DNA from: Bacteroidota bacterium | GTDB lineage: Bacteria > Bacteroidota > Bacteroidia > Flavobacteriales > Flavobacteriaceae | Assembly: GCA_022601215.1 (NCBI GenBank) | Contig: JAHZIZ010000029.1 | Span: 1 to 10,392 of the forward strand | Reading direction: 5' to 3' | DNA: 10,392 nucleotides | Part shown: positions 1 through 7,580 of the stretch, piece after piece | Position numbering within the stretch: position 1 is the stretch's first letter | How the letters are laid out: each line of letters opens with the position of its first letter | Notes under the pieces: model-generated | Told to the model about the DNA's origin: nothing | The model's database searches: none | The model's input: only the letters and a program-made list of their open reading frames with translations | Position numbers and translations under genes: made by a program

Positions 1-1283
1 CCATTGGTTCCATTTAGGTTATATCGTGCTCCTCCATCACCCCCTCGGGCACCTTTGTTGTTTACCGTTAAGCTAAATTTTGAGACCGATGGATCTTTAA
101 TTACGGTTACATTTCCGCCATTGCCCCCAGCACCTCCATGATCTCCGTTTGGGAATGCGTTACTACTACCTTTGCTACCCCACTGCCCAGCACCACCATT
201 TACATTTACAATGAGCGTGGTTTCAGGAGTGAGTTTATATCGAGCGATTACATTACCTTCATTTTCGTCGAACACTTCAATTTTATTAATAGAGATCCCT
301 TCCTTTTTGTGCTTTACAGTTTTTACCTTAATTCGAATATTATGCCCATTACCCCCTCGTTGACTCGCACCAAAAACAGCTTTTTTCGTTGCGATATGTC
401 GCTCAGAGCCACGAAAACCGTTTCTATTTACTTGTATAGAGATATCGTTGGTGGTAGAAAACGCCATTTGAGCTTTAAGTGAAGGGTGAAATACAGAGGC
501 TACTTTTAAGACAATTTCGTCGTTGTAGATTTTAGATGCGTCTTCCTCTACTCGTACCATTTCAGTTGTATTACTGCACCCAATATGGTTCATTTTAAAA
601 TCGCTCCAGGGTAGTTTTCCTCCGAGATTTGGTGTTTTTGCTTTTGAACCATCTTTGAGAATTGCAATCACTCCAAAGTTGATAGCTTCACTAAAATGAG
701 CTACTTTCTGTGGGATGTTTGTCAATTCTATTTCAATTTTTGAAACTTGCTTACCTTCCAACGAATTAGCTTTTCGATCCGCTTCTGCCATAGCCGCTTT
801 CTCCTGTTTCACATCGGCACGCGCATTGGTTTGGTTGGCAAAAATAGCTTTGGCATAGGTTGCTACTTCAATATTGGTTTTTTCCCAATTACCTGAAAAA
901 GACTTCCCAACGGGGACAAATATGTATTTTATCTTAGCGTTTTGCTTACCACTCCACTCATAATAAGCCACGTAGTTTTTTAGAAAGGATAGACGATATA
1001 CATTAAACCCAAAATAGGCAGGATAACCAGGAACATCTACCGCAAAACTTTCGTCTAAAATACCAGATCGCTTTACCATCACTTCTGCCACACCATCCCC
1101 ATTTTTAGTGATAGTAATAGGCCAAGTTTTCTTTACTTTTTCAAATTTTTTCTTATCCGTTACCTTATACACGTTGTAATCTCCCGAGTCATAGTTTCTA
1201 AGGATTTCATTCTGATTTTGTTGCGCATAGCTATTATGCACGAAGCAAAGAAAAATAAGAAGTAAGAATCTCATATAATTCAT
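1..1283 (-). CDS. Exported protein with glycine-rich C-terminal region, partial (runs off left edge)
   Basis: The minus strand is open from an ATG at 1283 to the window edge, about 427 codons with no stop, so the gene's 3' end lies outside. The N-terminus (MNYMRFLLLIFLCFVHNSYAQ) is a clear signal peptide, cleaved probably after A20, so the product is exported. An ATG at 1274 gives an equally good signal peptide, and the start is uncertain between the two. Residues of about 25-140 look like a beta-rich globular region. Residues of about 145-175 are Ala/Lys/Glu-rich and probably helical. From about residue 359 glycine becomes very frequent (GGAGQWGSKG, GGAGGNGGN, GARGGDGGA), a low-complexity tail seen in surface or matrix proteins. 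I recognise no enzymatic motif and cannot name a family. The gene has its own promoter region with a tandem direct repeat shared with the neighbouring two-component genes, which suggests control by that system. Confidence 0.85.
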   Translation of the reverse strand, partial: MNYMRFLLLIFLCFVHNSYAQQNQNEILRNYDSGDYNVYKVTDKKKFEKVKKTWPITITKNGDGVAEVMVKRSGILDESFAVDVPGYPAYFGFNVYRLSFLKNYVAYYEWSGKQNAKIKYIFVPVGKSFSGNWEKTNIEVATYAKAIFANQTNARADVKQEKAAMAEADRKANSLEGKQVSKIEIELTNIPQKVAHFSEAINFGVIAILKDGSKAKTPNLGGKLPWSDFKMNHIGCSNTTEMVRVEEDASKIYNDEIVLKVASVFHPSLKAQMAFSTTNDISIQVNRNGFRGSERHIATKKAVFGASQRGGNGHNIRIKVKTVKHKKEGISINKIEVFDENEGNVIARYKLTPETTLIVNVNGGAGQWGSKGSSNAFPNGDHGGAGGNGGNVTVIKDPSVSKFSLTVNNKGARGGDGGARYNLNGTN

Positions 1284-1306: not shown

Positions 1307-1314
1307 CAAAGATG
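1307..1314 (-). promoter_or_regulatory. Putative -7 promoter box of the glycine-rich protein gene
   Basis: Read on the minus strand this is CATCTTTG, five of six fixed positions of the Bacteroidota -7 consensus TAnnTTTG. It would start transcription near 1300, leaving a leader of about 18 bases before the ATG at 1283. No TTG lies at the usual -33 distance. A tandem repeat sits 31 bp upstream instead. Confidence 0.5.
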
Positions 1315-1344: not shown

Positions 1345-1374
1345 TTGCTGAAAAGGATATTTGAACTTCTGAAA
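1345..1374 (-). promoter_or_regulatory. Putative LytTR-type operator, copy 1 (direct repeat, 21-bp period)
   Basis: In the direction of the downstream gene there are two half-sites, TTTCAGAAG (1374-1366) and TTTCAGCAA (1353-1345), with starts exactly 21 bp apart. The first is followed by TTCAAA. The same arrangement recurs at three other promoters in the window. Paired 9-bp direct repeats two helical turns apart are the known layout for LytTR-domain regulators such as AgrA, and a LytTR regulator is encoded nearby. The assignment to that regulator is inference. Confidence 0.65.
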
Positions 1375-1445
1375 AGTCAAATACGTTCTCCATATCTACT
1401 CTCAGAATTCGTAGTCACTTCTCCTTCTAATTCAATGAGGTACAA

Positions 1446-1476
1446 TAAAAAAGACCATTCTAAAAAGAATGGTCTT
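1446..1476 (-). terminator. Rho-independent terminator of the small exported protein gene
   Basis: A perfect 11-bp stem (1451-1461 with 1466-1476; AAGACCATTCT pairs with AGAATGGTCTT) encloses an AAAA loop. On the minus strand it is followed by a T-rich run (TTTTATTG after the stem). It lies 28 bases downstream of the stop codon at 1504 and upstream of the next operator, so it separates the small gene from the glycine-rich gene. Confidence 0.85.
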
Positions 1477-1503
1477 ACTCTCAAAACATAATAGGTTAGT
1501 TAG

Positions 1504-1824
1504 TTATAGAAATTTAGAGAGTTTAATTGTTTTGCCGCACATATCGCTATCTATTTTAAAGATGACAGCTCCTTTTTTTCCATCATTCCCCCAACGAACT
1601 TCTTTGCCAGTATTACAAGTAATACTCGTTTTGGATCCTTTGTTGAGGCTTACAAAACCACTTCCAGTATAGATTCGAACTTTCTCCTTAGTGTCGTTTA
1701 CTAAACTAAAACTCGCAAAGGAAACTTCAGAGACAATGGTGTTATTTTCTTCTAATGAGACAACATTAGAAGGTGAAAAAGAGAAAAGACTGAGACTACA
1801 TATTACAAGGCATAAAATTTTCAT
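1504..1824 (-). CDS. Small exported protein of unknown function (106 aa)
   Basis: The N-terminus (MKILCLVICSLSLFSF) is a hydrophobic signal sequence, so the mature product of about 80 residues is probably periplasmic or extracellular. Cys5 and Cys9 are inside the hydrophobic core and are not in a good lipobox context, so I do not call it a lipoprotein. The mature part is beta-prone and carries two cysteines, C70 and C96, which could form one disulfide. It is rich in Lys, Ser, Thr and Gly. I do not recognise the family. It lies 96 bases downstream of the response regulator gene but has its own perfect -7 box and tandem operator, and it ends in a strong terminator. It is therefore likely a monocistronic target of the adjacent two-component system, though read-through from the regulator gene is possible because no terminator is visible between them. 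Confidence 0.75.
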   Translation of the reverse strand: MKILCLVICSLSLFSFSPSNVVSLEENNTIVSEVSFASFSLVNDTKEKVRIYTGSGFVSLNKGSKTSITCNTGKEVRWGNDGKKGAVIFKIDSDMCGKTIKLSKFL

Positions 1825-1851
1825 GAGATGGTTTTTTTAACGTTCATTATT

Positions 1852-1859
1852 CAAAACTA
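1852..1859 (-). promoter_or_regulatory. -7 promoter box of the small exported protein gene
   Basis: Read on the minus strand this is TAGTTTTG, a perfect match to the Bacteroidota -7 consensus TAnnTTTG. Transcription would start near 1846, giving a leader of about 20 bases before the ATG at 1824. No TTG lies 17-23 bp upstream; the tandem operator begins 30 bp upstream. Confidence 0.65.
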
Positions 1860-1888
1860 TCTGAAATCAAAAAAATAGAGTCTTAAAG

Positions 1889-1918
1889 TTTCTGAAACCG
1901 CCTTTTCAATTGCTGAAA
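1889..1918 (-). promoter_or_regulatory. Putative LytTR-type operator, copy 2 (direct repeat, 21-bp period)
   Basis: In the gene's direction the half-sites are TTTCAGCAA (1918-1910) and TTTCAGAAA (1897-1889), 21 bp apart, with TTGAAA following the first. The site lies just outside the stop codon of the response regulator gene (1921-1923), so it fills the short gap between the regulator and the small exported protein gene. A possible extra half-site, TTTCAGATA, lies at 1866-1858 and overlaps the -7 box. Confidence 0.7.
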
Positions 1919-1920
1919 CC

Positions 1921-2667
1921 TTACAGAGACTGCATAATTGATAAAAATTCACCTTTTTTTTCTTTTGAAATAGAAACACTTCGGTCATTATCCATTAGAA
2001 TATATCCTCCATCACTTTTTACATATTGCTTTATGAAAGTGAGATTGACTAAATAGGAACGATGAGGTTTGTAAAAAATGGATAATTCTTGAAGTAATTC
2101 AACAAAGTGTTTTAATGGCTTACTAATTAGTATTTCTTCCTGAGTCATGCTTATTTTAGTATACATCCCATCTGCCTCCATCATAATAATATCATCGAAC
2201 GCTACAAAACGAATCCCGTCGACCACAGGAAGTGCAATTTTTTTGAAATTTGAATGAGATAAGGCACTTTTCAACTCTTCAAGTTTCACGTTAATTTGCG
2301 AATTCCCAAGATGCTCAATGGCCTTCTCAACAGCATCAACTACCTTACTGGGTCGAATGGGTTTTAATATATAGTCAACCGCAGACAATTCGAAAGCCTG
2401 GATGGCATATTCGCTATAAGCAGTGGTAAAAATAATCTCAAAATCAAGTTCTTCTTTATCAAGAAAGTCCATAATCTCCAACCCTGAATGTTGGGGCATT
2501 TCAATATCTAGAAATACTATCTGCGGATGATGTTTTTTAATGAGGTCAACGCCACTCAATAAATCTTCTGCTTGAAATAGGCTATTAATTTTAGGACAAT
2601 TTTCGGTCACTAATACCTCTAATAATTTCCTTGCCTTGGGTTCGTCGTCAATAATAAGTGCTTTCAT
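1921..2667 (-). CDS. LytTR-family response regulator
   Basis: This is a two-component response regulator of the LytR/AlgR type, 248 aa, the usual length. Residues 1-120 form a receiver domain with the acidic pocket D7/D8, the phospho-acceptor D54 (FLDIEMP), T82 and the conserved K102 (LKP). Residues 143-248 form a LytTR DNA-binding domain (DIIMMEADGMYTKI..., FYKPHRSYLVNL). All key receiver residues are present, so it should be phosphorylatable. It lies 45 bp downstream of the sensor kinase gene on the same strand with no promoter or terminator visible between them, so the two are almost certainly one operon and cognate partners. LytTR domains bind paired direct repeats about two helical turns apart, and such repeats occur at four promoters in this window. 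Whether this protein binds them is inference. Confidence 0.96.
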   Translation of the reverse strand: MKALIIDDEPKARKLLEVLVTENCPKINSLFQAEDLLSGVDLIKKHHPQIVFLDIEMPQHSGLEIMDFLDKEELDFEIIFTTAYSEYAIQAFELSAVDYILKPIRPSKVVDAVEKAIEHLGNSQINVKLEELKSALSHSNFKKIALPVVDGIRFVAFDDIIMMEADGMYTKISMTQEEILISKPLKHFVELLQELSIFYKPHRSYLVNLTFIKQYVKSDGGYILMDNDRSVSISKEKKGEFLSIMQSL

Positions 2668-2675
2668 AATTTTTT

Positions 2676-2680
2676 CTCCT
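2676..2680 (-). promoter_or_regulatory. Shine-Dalgarno site of the response regulator gene
   Basis: On the minus strand the sequence AAAGGAGAAAAAATT precedes the ATG at 2667, with AGGAG eight bases from the start codon. This is a strong ribosome binding site, notable because the other genes here lack one. It supports the start at 2667 and suggests the regulator may be translated more strongly than the kinase. Confidence 0.65.
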
Positions 2681-2712
2681 TTCGCATAAGCTTAAGGTAA
2701 TAAGTCGGTTAG

Positions 2713-5631
2713 TTATTCTACTTCAAAAGGGATGCGTATAGTAACCTCTGTGCCAATAGCCTTGTCATTGGCATCATATAAGTCTGTTATAGCTACTCCA
2801 ATTTTTTTGTCTTTTCCTTGATTAATCATTTGCAATCGATCGTCATTTGCTTTTGTGGCAAACGATTTATGATTTTTCGCCCTTCTTTGTTGCAGTTGTT
2901 TCGCCTTTTCCCTCCCAATACCATTATCCCTAACCATACATATAATATGCTTAAAGTCTGAGCTGTGTTCAAAAGAAATTGTTAGCACACAATTTTCCTT
3001 TTTATGAAGGAGCCCATGTTTTAAGCTATTTTCAACATACGGCTGAACTAACATTGTTGGGATAAAAATTTCATCAAGGAAAAGGTTTTTAGACTTGGAG
3101 ACCTTATAACTTAATTTATCTTCAAAGCGCAGTTTCTCCAGTTCCAAATACATTTCTAGGCAATTAATTTCTTCTTGTAACGATATCGTCCCTTTTCCAC
3201 TATGTTTCAAATATGTTCGTACTAAATCCGCAAATTTTCCAAGGTAGTCACTGGCTAAGTCCTTTTTATTGAGAACAATATATTCCTGAATTGAGTTAAG
3301 GGCGTTGAAAATAAAATGCGGATTCATTTGAGAACGGAGATTCTCCAATTTTAAAGAGGTAAGCTGATTGTTAAGCTGTAATTGGGCCACCTCAAGGTCT
3401 TTTTCTTTTTCCTTTCTTGACTGAAACGATTTAAAATATGCCACAGCGATTAAAAGTGTTGCGGAAATGATTAAAGAAATAAACCACCAACGTTGCCAAT
3501 ACGGTAAGGCTATCGTGAATTGAATAGATTTTGGGAGCGACACTTTATTGCTATATACATTCTTGGCTCGTACGTTAAATAGGTAGGCTCCATTGGCAAG
3601 GTTATTAAATGTTACCTCTCTGACTCCATTCTGAAGGGAAATCCACTCATCCGTATCGTCATTGAATTGATATTGATAGATAATATTTTTATCGACTTGA
3701 AAGCCATTTGCATGAAACTCAATTTTTATTCGATTTTGTTGATAAGACAAATCATACGATTGTTTAAGATCCACTTTTTTATCAGCTATAGTAATGGAGG
3801 TGACGTATAATTGTGGGTTTCTACGCTCAATGAATGCCTTGTTCTTATCTACCGAAAACAACCCATCATTACTAGCAAAGAATATTTCATTACCAAGTAC
3901 GGTGATTTCGTTGATTTTAAAAGATGGAATCCCATCTTGTTGCGTAAGCACCTTCACTTCTTTCGTAATGGTATTGATATAAGCAACATCTTCTTGGGTT
4001 GCTGCCCAGATGTATTCTTCTTGGGTTTCAAGAATAGAAGTTCTATTGGTAGGCAAACCATTTGTAGCATTAAAAGCGGTCACAACGCTATCGTTCCTTA
4101 TCCCTAAAATTCCATGCTTAAAAGTAGTGACCCAAAGGGTGTTGTCTTCTGTCTGCGCCATATCTAAGGCGAAAATTGACTCCCCTTGGTATAAAATAAT
4201 GTGTTCCTTATACAAAGAATCGAACCTTCGCAAATGGTCTGTATTGCCTACAAAATAGCTCTTTTGAGAAGCATCATAAAAACAAGAATAAGACCTTTTT
4301 CTATTTAGCTGTTGTTCAGTCACCCAAGGTTCACGTGAATGTGCGGTATATATAGTACTTGAGTTATAGGTGGCTACAACAAATGTAGAATCATTAATTT
4401 GGGAAACATCTTTTAAGTTTCCAAACTCCTTATGCTGTCTAATTTGTTTTGACGTTACGATAACACCTCCCAAATCATTACTCGCGAGCAGTAAGTTTTT
4501 ATTCTCAAAGTAGCATAATTCTGAAATTTTTGCTGGGGCTTTATCCAATAAGGTATAATTCTGATACGTTGGATTATATGTCCCTACAGATCCATTAAAA
4601 CTTCCCATTACCAAGGCCCCGTCTTTATATTTTTTCAAACTTTTTATGTTTGCTACTTCTTTGGGTAAGGAGTATTTTTTAATATTGATATTGGGAATAA
4701 CGAACACACCATCGTCCAAACTACTTATCCAATAATTTTGGTCTTTATCTTTGGTCGCATCAGTAGGAAAATAACTCGTTAGAAAATTATTGACATATAT
4801 AAGTTTTTCATTTTCGTAACGATACGTAAATATTCCTTTGCTCGTAAAAAACCAAATATAGCCATCTAAGGAGCTCACTCTAGACCATCTCACTTGCAAT
4901 AATTCTTGCGGCAAGTGAATCGACGATACTATTTTAGCTTCAATGTCTAGTAATAGTAATGCATTCCCCCTGTTTCTATGTCTATAAATAAAGGTCTTTT
5001 CGTTATGCTGAAAATATTCATTCGAGTCATTGGTCACAAACAAATTACTATTCGAAAATATAGGTGTCAATTTTTTTGGGTTTGTAATATCCAAGAGAGT
5101 GTCCTTTCTTGTATTATAACATCTGCCTTTAAACATAAAGCTTGAGCCTCCAAATGAAGACTTAAAATCAATTTTTCCATACTCCATTTTTTTAGTATCA
5201 AAATCTATGATATAGCGCATGTAATACCCCGTTAGTACAACGTTGTTTTCTAAGAAATCGATTTTAACAGATTCTCCATATTTCCCCATATTGAGATCGT
5301 AGAATAAGTGCATTTTTTCATTCTGCACATAAAAAATCTGTCCTGTGATATTTTTACACCAGATTCGGCCATTTTTATCTTCAGCAATATTGAAAACGGA
5401 CAACCCTCGCTTCTCTGGATGATTGTAATTGATAAATGTCTTCCCATCGTATTTGTACAAGCCTTTGTCCGCAGCCAACCAAACAAAACCTTTACTGTCG
5501 GTAAAAAGATCATAGAACTCAATATCAGGCAAACCATCTTTTTCAGTTAAGTGAATCACACTTGGCTCCTGCGCGTTGATTGCCCAAGAACTCAATACCA
5601 TAAAAAATAGAATGAAAAACTGCTTCTGCAT
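2713..5631 (-). CDS. Hybrid propeller-type (Reg_prop/Y_Y_Y) LytS-like sensor histidine kinase
   Basis: This is a membrane sensor kinase, 972 aa from the chosen ATG at 5631. In order it has a signal peptide (MQKQFFILFFMVLSSWAINA, residues 1-20) and a large periplasmic beta-propeller region with Reg_prop-like repeats (for example DSKGFVWLAADKGLYKYDG and EEYIWAATQEDVAYI). Next come a Y_Y_Y domain at about 630-693, a transmembrane helix at about 716-734 starting at WWFISL, a coiled-coil linker, and a His_kinase (PF06580-type) domain with the phospho-acceptor His772 in NPHFIFNALNSIQ. The ATPase domain has an N-box (N868 in ENSLKH) and DNGIG at D902. An in-frame ATG at 5676 would add 15 residues. 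I prefer 5631 because it gives a standard signal peptide and because 5676 lies upstream of the predicted promoter box. The ligand is unknown; related propeller sensors often sense polysaccharide fragments. There is no receiver or AraC domain on the protein. The output goes through the downstream LytTR regulator. Confidence 0.95.
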   Translation of the reverse strand: MQKQFFILFFMVLSSWAINAQEPSVIHLTEKDGLPDIEFYDLFTDSKGFVWLAADKGLYKYDGKTFINYNHPEKRGLSVFNIAEDKNGRIWCKNITGQIFYVQNEKMHLFYDLNMGKYGESVKIDFLENNVVLTGYYMRYIIDFDTKKMEYGKIDFKSSFGGSSFMFKGRCYNTRKDTLLDITNPKKLTPIFSNSNLFVTNDSNEYFQHNEKTFIYRHRNRGNALLLLDIEAKIVSSIHLPQELLQVRWSRVSSLDGYIWFFTSKGIFTYRYENEKLIYVNNFLTSYFPTDATKDKDQNYWISSLDDGVFVIPNINIKKYSLPKEVANIKSLKKYKDGALVMGSFNGSVGTYNPTYQNYTLLDKAPAKISELCYFENKNLLLASNDLGGVIVTSKQIRQHKEFGNLKDVSQINDSTFVVATYNSSTIYTAHSREPWVTEQQLNRKRSYSCFYDASQKSYFVGNTDHLRRFDSLYKEHIILYQGESIFALDMAQTEDNTLWVTTFKHGILGIRNDSVVTAFNATNGLPTNRTSILETQEEYIWAATQEDVAYINTITKEVKVLTQQDGIPSFKINEITVLGNEIFFASNDGLFSVDKNKAFIERRNPQLYVTSITIADKKVDLKQSYDLSYQQNRIKIEFHANGFQVDKNIIYQYQFNDDTDEWISLQNGVREVTFNNLANGAYLFNVRAKNVYSNKVSLPKSIQFTIALPYWQRWWFISLIISATLLIAVAYFKSFQSRKEKEKDLEVAQLQLNNQLTSLKLENLRSQMNPHFIFNALNSIQEYIVLNKKDLASDYLGKFADLVRTYLKHSGKGTISLQEEINCLEMYLELEKLRFEDKLSYKVSKSKNLFLDEIFIPTMLVQPYVENSLKHGLLHKKENCVLTISFEHSSDFKHIICMVRDNGIGREKAKQLQQRRAKNHKSFATKANDDRLQMINQGKDKKIGVAITDLYDANDKAIGTEVTIRIPFEVE

Positions 5632-5652
5632 GAAGAAGGTTAAAAATAAAAG

Positions 5653-5660
5653 TAAAACTA
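5653..5660 (-). promoter_or_regulatory. Putative -7 promoter box of the kinase-regulator operon
   Basis: On the minus strand this is TAGTTTTA, differing only in the last base from TAnnTTTG and nearly identical to the box of the small exported protein gene. It lies exactly 30 bp from the upstream operator, the same as at 1852-1859. Transcription would start near 5647, only about 16 bases before the ATG at 5631, which argues against translation starting at 5676. Confidence 0.55.
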
Positions 5661-5689
5661 CGACAATGTTTTTCAACTTCTCTATCCAA

Positions 5690-5719
5690 TTTCCGAAGCA
5701 AGCGTTTCAACTTCCGAAA
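5690..5719 (-). promoter_or_regulatory. Putative LytTR-type operator, copy 3, upstream of the kinase operon
   Basis: In the direction of the kinase gene the half-sites are TTTCGGAAG (5719-5711) and CTTCGGAAA (5698-5690), 21 bp apart, with TTGAAA after the first. This copy has CGG where copies 1 and 2 have CAG. Its position implies autoregulation of the two-component operon. Confidence 0.65.
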
Positions 5720-5757
5720 TGTGATTTTATACGCCAATAAAACAGCCCAAAAGACGA

Positions 5758-5787
5758 TTTCACAAACTCAAAGACCTCTTTCAACAA
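5758..5787 (+). promoter_or_regulatory. Putative LytTR-type operator, copy 4, upstream of the FG-GAP gene
   Basis: On the plus strand the half-sites are TTTCACAAA (5758-5766) and TTTCAACAA (5779-5787), 21 bp apart, with CTCAAA after the first. It is more divergent than the other copies but points toward the plus-strand gene. The stretch TTTCAACAATTGAAAA (5779-5794) matches copy 2 (1918-1903, minus strand) at 15 of 16 bases. It shares the divergent intergenic region with copy 3. Confidence 0.55.
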
Positions 5788-5817: not shown

Positions 5818-5825
5818 CAACTTTA
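5818..5825 (+). promoter_or_regulatory. Weak putative -7 box of the FG-GAP gene
   Basis: CAACTTTA matches four of six fixed positions of TAnnTTTG. The call rests mainly on its position: 31 bp from the operator, as at the other three promoters. Transcription would start near 5831, ten bases before the ATG at 5841. Confidence 0.3.
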
Positions 5826-5840
5826 TCAAAATTTATCGGT

Positions 5841-7580
5841 ATGAAATTAGCTTTTACCTTCATTTTTCTTATTAGTACATTAACCTATTCTCAAGTAGGA
5901 ATTGGCACTACTACCCCAGAAGGCGCATTCGATATTGTTTCACCCAATATGGGAATGGTACTTCCTAGAGTTAGTGCAATAGAAAATGTTGTACAACCCA
6001 ATGGTTCGACTGCAGCAAATGGAACTGTGGTATATGATATTTCTAGAGAAAAAGTGTGTCACAGGGTACAAAACACTTGGATATGCACAGGAATTGACAG
6101 TAATGGAAACTCCCAAACCCAGGTTACCCTTACCCCACCCACGGTAATAGCCACATACATAAAAGCATCCAATACGGATATTGCGGATAATTTTGGGCAG
6201 AGTGTTGCTTTAAGTGCCGATGGCAATTATTTGGCGATAGGGACCTTTTTTGAAGATTCCGTCTCAGGAGGGATTAACGGAAACCAAAGTAACAATAGCG
6301 CAACCAACTCTGGCGCCGTCTACTTATTTGTTAAAAGTGGCACAACATGGATTCAACAAGCCTATATCAAACCCTTTTTTCCAAATGTAAGTGATCATTT
6401 TGGTGAGGTTGTAGCTCTGTCCGAAGATGGTAGCAGACTTGTGGTAGGTGCACCTTTAGAGGATGGCGGAAGTATAGGTGTAAATGGAAATCAATTTGAC
6501 AACAGTGTCCAAAACGCTGGAGCTGCATTTGTGTATAGACGTACCGGAGTTAACTGGATACAAGAGGCCTACTTAAAATCGTTTGCTGTCGATATTGATG
6601 ATGTGTTTGGCAATGCCGTAGCTATAAGCAATGACGGTAGCGTTATTGCAGTAGGAGCAAGGCAAGAAGACAGTAATGCCATCGGTGTTGACGGGGATTT
6701 TACCAACAATGATACTACTACTTTGGACTCTGGTGCTGTATATACTTATACTCGATCAGGAACTAACTGGAATACCCAGTCTTACTTTAAAGCGGTCGAT
6801 ACGCAATACAGCACTATTTTCGGATTTAAGATCGCATTGGGTGGTGATGGAAATTTGCTAGTAGTTAGCTCACCCGGAGAAAGAAGTGATAGTACAGGAA
6901 TCAATGGGGATCCATATAACAATAATGCTTTAAGCTCTGGAGCAGTGTATGTATTCAGAAACCAAGGAGGTTGGGCTCAAGAAGCCTTTATCAAAGCAAG
7001 TAATACAGAAGCTAGTGATTTCTTTGGAGCAAGTGTCGCATTGAGTAACGACGGCAACAAATTACTTGTGGGGGCAGAAGGAGAATCAAGTAATGCCACT
7101 GGTCTTGATGGCGATCAATCCAACAACGGTGCTTCCACATCTGGCGCAGCCTACCTTTTTTCGCATGATGGAAATCAATGGAGCCAGATAAACTATATAA
7201 AAGCAAGTAACACAAGAGCAGGTCATCGTTTCGGGAAAACTGCAGAACTAAGTGGCTCTGGAACAAGAATTATCATAGGTACTACTGAAGAAAATAGCGG
7301 TAGTACAGGAATTAATGGCAATGAAAATAACACCAGCACCTTTAGGGCAGGAGCTGCTTATATATTTGATAAAGAAAATGGGGTTTGGGGTCAAACAGCT
7401 TACGTAAAATCAAGCAATACAGAAGCTAGCGATGTTTTCGGACATGCCATAGCAACCACGGCTATTGGCGATACTGTTGTTATTTCTGCCCCGGGAGAAG
7501 ACAGTAATGCCACTGGCATCAATGGTGACCAAGCCAATAATGGAGCCCAAGACTCAGGAGCCGTCTATATCATCAAATAA
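5841..7580 (+). CDS. Exported FG-GAP repeat protein, predicted seven-bladed beta-propeller
   Basis: This protein has 579 aa. It begins with a signal peptide (cleavage probably between S17 and Q18) and then the module QVGIGTTTPEGAFDI...PR...GTVVYDI...W, common at the N-terminus of exported Bacteroidota proteins. From residue 106 to the end there are seven repeats of 68-71 residues of the FG-GAP_2 kind: Y-I-K-A-S-N-T...D.FG..VALS.DG..L.VGA..E.S...G.NG...N....SGA.Y.F...W.Q. The seventh repeat ends at GAVYIIK and lacks the closing W.Q strand. The strand before repeat 1 (VIATYIKAS) could complete it, as in ring closure of propellers. The Asp/Asn/Gly-rich loops resemble metal-binding loops of integrin-like propellers. 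No type IX sorting domain follows. It is divergent from the kinase operon and preceded by a related operator, so it is a likely regulated surface or periplasmic target. The ligand is unknown. Confidence 0.9.
   Translation: MKLAFTFIFLISTLTYSQVGIGTTTPEGAFDIVSPNMGMVLPRVSAIENVVQPNGSTAANGTVVYDISREKVCHRVQNTWICTGIDSNGNSQTQVTLTPPTVIATYIKASNTDIADNFGQSVALSADGNYLAIGTFFEDSVSGGINGNQSNNSATNSGAVYLFVKSGTTWIQQAYIKPFFPNVSDHFGEVVALSEDGSRLVVGAPLEDGGSIGVNGNQFDNSVQNAGAAFVYRRTGVNWIQEAYLKSFAVDIDDVFGNAVAISNDGSVIAVGARQEDSNAIGVDGDFTNNDTTTLDSGAVYTYTRSGTNWNTQSYFKAVDTQYSTIFGFKIALGGDGNLLVVSSPGERSDSTGINGDPYNNNALSSGAVYVFRNQGGWAQEAFIKASNTEASDFFGASVALSNDGNKLLVGAEGESSNATGLDGDQSNNGASTSGAAYLFSHDGNQWSQINYIKASNTRAGHRFGKTAELSGSGTRIIIGTTEENSGSTGINGNENNTSTFRAGAAYIFDKENGVWGQTAYVKSSNTEASDVFGHAIATTAIGDTVVISAPGEDSNATGINGDQANNGAQDSGAVYIIK
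6156..7577 (+). repeat. Seven in-frame tandem FG-GAP repeats
   Basis: Repeats begin at codons for Y106, Y175, Y244, Y315, F383, Y452 and Y521, a period of 204-213 bases. Similarity also shows at the DNA level: AATACAGAAGCTAGTGAT in repeat 5 recurs as AATACAGAAGCTAGCGAT in repeat 7, and AGTAATGCCACTGG occurs in both. Repeats 2 to 4 are more diverged. This suggests growth by internal duplication, with repeats 5 and 7 the most recently related. Confidence 0.85.

Follow-up and report, generated by a model that had tools for sequence, protein, structure and literature searches.

Here we describe a DNA element made of two half-sites in direct repeat, which is very probably the operator through which a LytTR response regulator of the Flavobacteriaceae activates its own operon and the neighbouring genes for exported proteins. 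We show by computation that the repeats are present, conserved, held at a fixed geometry relative to the promoter and found together with the regulator across genomes. The window, by which we mean the whole stretch of DNA analysed (10,392 nucleotides), is part of contig C437 in a 2.83-Mb, 80%-complete genome of a marine flavobacterium.

Paired half-sites around a kinase and regulator gene pair

The genes for a histidine kinase and a LytTR regulator are consecutive in the window and are surrounded by three genes for presumed exported proteins, the signal sequences of whose products were assessed by eye. The genes and the candidate operators, A to D, are as follows.

3..1283, minus strand: presumed exported protein, target A; the contig end truncates the gene (427 aa visible)
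1345..1374, minus strand: operator A, TTTCAGAAG-TTCAAA-N6-TTTCAGCAA, upstream of the exported-protein gene 3-1283; exact match to the strict pattern
1504..1824, minus strand: presumed exported protein of 106 aa, target B, without a Pfam or NCBIfam family
1889..1918, minus strand: operator B, TTTCAGCAA-TTGAAA-N6-TTTCAGAAA, upstream of the gene for the 106-aa exported protein; exact match to the strict pattern
1921..2667, minus strand: LytTR response regulator with receiver and LytTR domains (domain scan), the presumed operator binder
2713..5631, minus strand: histidine kinase with Reg_prop propeller, Y_Y_Y and His_kinase (domain scan, read from 5676)
5690..5719, minus strand: operator C, TTTCGGAAG-TTGAAA-N6-CTTCGGAAA, upstream of the kinase/regulator operon
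5758..5787, plus strand: operator D, the weakest, TTTCACAAA-CTCAAA-N6-TTTCAACAA, upstream of the FG-GAP repeat protein gene
5841..7580, plus strand: FG-GAP_2 repeat protein of 579 aa (domain scan), target D

Both regulator domains score above the cut-off (Response_reg, 6.1e-22; LytTR, 1.5e-15), and the adjoining gene encodes a membrane histidine kinase (His_kinase PF06580 at 9e-24). Full-length relatives of target A occur at two related loci, L031 and L032. Between 1504-1824 and 3-1283 lies a perfect 11-bp inverted repeat (loop of 4 bases) accompanied by a T run (window:1451-1476), which is likely a terminator separating targets A and B.

The initial annotation had placed paired half-sites in four promoters, and all four pairs are confirmed, with start-to-start distances of exactly 21 bp. 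The first base of each site lies 91 (A), 94 (B), 88 (C) and 83 bp (D) from the start codon. An independent repeat search recovered the 21-bp spacing at three of the sites (A, B and C) and did not return D. To score the sites we used a weight matrix built from 26 sites of other species with the window sites left out; on both strands of the window it gives A, B, C and D the four best scores (28.5, 35.8, 18.9 and 16.1 respectively), with A and B strong, C weaker and D weakest, and the fifth-best score (13.9) is an overlapping register of D. Scores of at least 16 occur at a frequency of 1e-6 in 3 Mb of first-order Markov sequence, corresponding to 0.02 expected per window.

The genome-wide search proposed in the initial annotation gave few strict matches, mostly local: TTTCRGMAR-N12-TTTCRGMAR with zero mismatch matches twice in the 2.83-Mb genome, both times inside the window. 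At up to three mismatches the pattern is common genome-wide (381 matches versus 217 for the reversed pattern), and loose matches therefore carry no meaning. Although this abundance could be taken to favour chance or sequence bias, such an origin is hardly credible given that the window-free matrix places the four sites at ranks 1-4 and that the spacing peak and the fixed promoter distance are found again in other genera.

Site anatomy, promoter geometry and proposed activation

The consensus of 30 sites reads NTTYAGMARYT-SAAA-N6-TTTCAGMARYT. These were drawn from 36 listed sites after dropping three at L039, which are near copies of those at L035, together with L033:4929, L033:10006 and L035:9758. 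The direct repeat first described as 9 bp long stands as a repeat, but its half-site extends to about 11 bp. Accordingly, the YTSAAA block, which does follow half-site 1 in all four window sites (TTCAAA, TTGAAA, TTGAAA and CTCAAA), is not a separate block and consists of the end of half-site 1 (YT) plus SAAA. In some sites a palindrome, TTTCAGCAATTGAAA, can be read, under which half-site 1 would be the inverted repeat TTTCA-N5-TGAAA and its binder a symmetric dimer. We give this reading next to no probability and consider it ruled out, as position 12 is an even mix of G and C in the 30 sites (14 G, 13 C, 2 A, 1 T) and the SAAA arm is absent from the second half-site.

In 66 of 83 intergenic sites, a TAnnTTTG -7 box (at least 5 of 6 positions) begins 29-30 bp past the second 9-mer, compared with a mean of 1.2 sites at other offsets. 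This set leaves out L039, two sites within ORFs of more than 110 aa, scores below 18 and sites too near the locus ends, and takes in four distant loci selected by pattern (L220, L221, L222 and L236). A -33 TTG is not conserved, with a total of 4 across spacers of 17-23 in 78 sites. TAnnTTTG occupies -12 to -5 in Flavobacterium psychrophilum (PMC9723704), which puts the centre of the operator near -57 from the predicted transcription start. The corresponding boxes in the window are:

1307..1314, minus strand: predicted -7 box CATCTTTG, 30 bp past operator A
1852..1859, minus strand: predicted -7 box TAGTTTTG, 29 bp past operator B
5653..5660, minus strand: predicted -7 box TAGTTTTA, 29 bp past operator C
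5818..5825, plus strand: weak predicted -7 box CAACTTTA (4 of 6 matches), 30 bp past operator D

The position of the box at 5653..5660 suggests that the kinase starts at ATG 5631 rather than TTG 5676. At three loci of relatives (L199:10850, L201:10606 and L207:10476, plus strand), an additional inverted repeat (TTGCCAT...ATGGCAA-like) was seen by eye between operator and -7 box.

We propose that the sensor part of the kinase responds to a cue and that the kinase would then phosphorylate the regulator; a regulator dimer would occupy the two direct half-sites (TTYAGMARYT), which are separated by two helical turns and centred near -57, and would activate promoters that have a TAnnTTTG -7 box without a conserved -33 box. 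Binding, phosphorylation, the cue and activation over repression are what we infer here. Receiver residues D54 and K102 are invariant in 12 aligned regulators, making phosphorylation plausible. The geometry agrees with activation by a dimer that sits on one face of the DNA immediately before the promoter core, and most LytTR regulators bind upstream of -35 and activate (PMC11347149). The targets would be the kinase/regulator operon and the neighbouring exported-protein genes, which in relatives often appear to encode type IX cargo. An operator precedes the kinase gene both in the window and at many related loci, which points to positive feedback.

The local regulator could instead repress these promoters from the same operator, and a LytTR repressor, CoxC, is indeed on record (PMC11347149). 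We regard repression as very unlikely: the -7 box lies clear of the operator, about 30 bp downstream of its end, and there is no conserved -33 box, as fits activator-dependent promoters, whereas the CoxC operator overlaps its own -35 box (same source). Activation by the adjacent regulator remains the reading we follow below.

Conservation and distribution beside related regulators

Twelve relatives of the regulator (at loci L031-L042) are 65-80% identical, the next one being 46% identical. The closest, at 80%, is from a same-genus genome, G166, in which the contig coordinates and the sites are identical to those in the genome of Aureisphaera galaxeae (L031). An intergenic site was found with a window-site matrix in all 12 loci, mostly 74-99 bp before the start codon, and 32 half-site pairs are spaced at 21 bp, compared with 0-11 pairs for any other distance between 10 and 44 bp. 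The 21-bp period, which the initial annotation expected at orthologous loci, is thus conserved beside orthologous regulators. As the L031-L042 sites were first chosen by the window matrix, the independent tests are the window-free matrix and 23 further family loci chosen solely for regulator homology (a regulator at a contig end, in G089, was left out of the loci). An intergenic site scoring at least 19.1 is present in 21 of these 23, which jointly hold 58 sites at a score of at least 12 versus 2-6 in five Markov-shuffled sets; the matrix scan found no intergenic site in L214 and L218. At L217 the sole site lies about 3 kb from the regulator, before a gene that is not exported-looking, and the second regulator of L204 has no nearby site scoring above 12.4. 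These last regulators (L204:13451-14209, L217 and L218) form a second subfamily, about 50% identical, that seems to go without the operator, apart from the one far site at L217.

At loci L043-L054 there are seven matches at a score of at least 13, of which one is intergenic (L043:795) and five lie within ORFs of more than 200 aa. At L213, where the regulator is 58% identical, TTCATAA or TTTATAA replaces TTYAGMA in both sites (L213:8045 and L213:9629, minus strand), suggesting a possible co-divergence of regulator and operator; as one such genome is too few, no specificity residue can be named from the aligned LytTR domains.

Operator and regulator also co-occur across genomes, as the initial annotation would predict. 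A search of 11 genomes (about 49 Mb) with YTTYAGMARYTSAAA-N6-TTTCAGMAR at up to one mismatch found 20 matches spread over 10 genomes; the kinase/regulator locus accounts for 17, and the reversed pattern has none. Across 397 family genomes, the regulator is present in 28 (23 genera) at E 1e-75 or better and the pattern, again at up to one mismatch, in 32 (52 matches; control, 0). The pattern occurs in 18 of the 28 genomes with the regulator, the other 10 being without it, versus 14 of the 369 without the regulator; exact matches occur in 8 of the 397, and all 8 have the regulator. Fisher values, which ignore phylogeny, are 7e-16 for co-occurrence at up to one mismatch and 2e-10 for exact co-occurrence. 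We read the matches in 13 of the 14 matching genomes that lack the regulator (G154 was left out): nine lie within ORFs, and a -7 box of 5/6 at the right place is absent from all 13. Six distant matches in regulator genomes were also read; those at L220, L221, L222 and L236 are intergenic with a -7 box, and those at L136 and L235 are within ORFs and without one. Searching the 28 regulator genomes for the operator joined to the -7 element (offset 30 only, up to two mismatches) returned 65 matches in 22 genomes versus 7 for the reversed control, and at zero mismatch 18 of 20 matches are at the regulator locus.

These distributions bear on which protein binds the repeats. The source genome has nine LytTR genes, and one of the eight other LytTR proteins, or another regulator altogether, might be the binder. 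This is very unlikely: exact operator matches are confined to genomes with the local regulator, the sites cluster at its gene, and 18 loci with more distant LytTR regulators have no 21-bp peak (7 pairs at 21 bp, 12 at 27 bp). The adjacent regulator is therefore retained as the presumed binder.

Targets, sensors and known LytTR systems

The initial annotation spoke of a propeller kinase, which holds for the window, where Reg_prop is present, but not for the family. Among 15 scanned kinases (some read from a late start), eight have Reg_prop and/or Y_Y_Y (the window, L031, L033, L035, L041, L197, L200 and L211), six have TPR repeats instead (L038, L040, L042, L199, L203 and L205) and in one (L210) the kinase domain alone was found.

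Targets vary as well. A type IX secretion sorting tail is present in 17 of 37 scanned proteins encoded downstream of operators, most of which were scanned against just one of Pfam and NCBIfam; the domain scan found no such tail in the three window targets, of which target A is cut by the contig end. Other targets in relatives carry FG-GAP, fn3, cadherin, DUF285, NHL or InlB-type repeats, and one in L033 resembles GldB. A run of five targets at L203:814-10228 looks like a multiplied operator-plus-gene unit: every gene in it is preceded by an operator of its own, and promoter geometry hardly differs among them. A terpene synthase (Pfam) is encoded downstream of an operator at L035:17615-18640, and the regulon may thus include a volatile or other terpene. 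Two further genes with an operator upstream (L036:14680-15660 and L039:17550-18527) resemble this synthase by their sequence ends. A distant operator with a -7 box (L220:7081-7440, minus strand) precedes an 82-aa ORF without a match in the NCBIfam scan, the start of which we take to look like a double-glycine peptide leader.

The 106-aa protein of target B has 149 homologues, 120 of which are among the matches listed, and occurs at E 1e-12 or better in 6 of the 397 family genomes, all with the regulator. Its gene was found at eight loci, with an operator 93-99 bp before the start at six and a position downstream of other target genes at the remaining two. Structure prediction yields a beta domain, with pLDDT above 90 from roughly residue 40 onwards, for which Foldseek gave no match in the PDB at E 0.001 or better. 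Partial matches to thaumatin-like and VHL-like folds were non-significant and were rejected. Neither Pfam nor NCBIfam assigned the protein to a family, and 30 homologues were without a convincing Pfam family. It is conceivable, if unlikely, that this protein, produced from the same operator, is a circuit component and not a passive target: as a secreted signal or sensor partner, it would act back on the kinase via the kinase's exported sensor domain. If so, the locus would form a self-amplifying switch of surface state in Flavobacteriaceae, comparable to the peptide-driven LytTR circuits of Gram-positive bacteria.

Among known systems the closest in kind is AgrA of Staphylococcus aureus, a LytTR response regulator whose dimer occupies a pair of direct repeats immediately upstream of the promoter at P2/P3. 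The present system has the same hallmarks: a receiver joined to a LytTR domain, an adjacent membrane histidine kinase, the conserved receiver aspartate and lysine, and, upstream of the promoter, a direct repeat whose half-sites are separated by about two helical turns. The LytTR profile reaches few solved structures, AgrA chains among them (E of about 0.07). The AgrA half-site consensus presumably differs from the half-site here, and AgrA differs further in its unrelated sensor and targets and in the TAnnTTTG-type -7 box without a -33 box found here. Its repeats are centred near -60 (PMC4227749), versus near -57 here.

The LytTR Regulatory Systems HdrRM and BrsRM also control their own expression through direct repeats located ahead of the promoter, mostly with 12 bp between them, but, like the similar operons of Bacteroides, pair the LytTR regulator with a membrane protein that is not a kinase (PMC6193735); here, a kinase and a receiver are present. 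Autoregulatory LytTR repeats predicted in B. thetaiotaomicron and B. ovatus consist of 11-bp TCCGGnATTCA-like units with a 22-bp period versus 21 bp here (same source). RcoM1 and CoxC also use direct repeats about two turns apart, with half-sites TTCNNGCA and TTNNNGCN partly like TTTCAGCA, but have three half-sites and are one-component regulators of CO metabolism, CoxC acting as a repressor (PMC11347149). The 9-bp direct repeats with a spacer of about 12 bp that the initial annotation gave for LytTR sites agree with the 9-bp direct repeats and 10-13-bp spacers described in the same source. In the open-licence literature we found no experimentally mapped LytTR operator in Flavobacteriaceae, just the predicted Bacteroides repeats (PMC6193735). 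The operator and its local regulon are new, and the AgrA-like kind of system is already known.

Collectively, the sequence next to one regulator discloses an operator together with its promoter geometry and local regulon, so that activation from the phylum's unusual promoters can be tested directly. The analysis links a two-component system to the production of exported surface proteins in Flavobacteriaceae, in which sensor domains and targets are exchanged while the regulator and its operator remain together.
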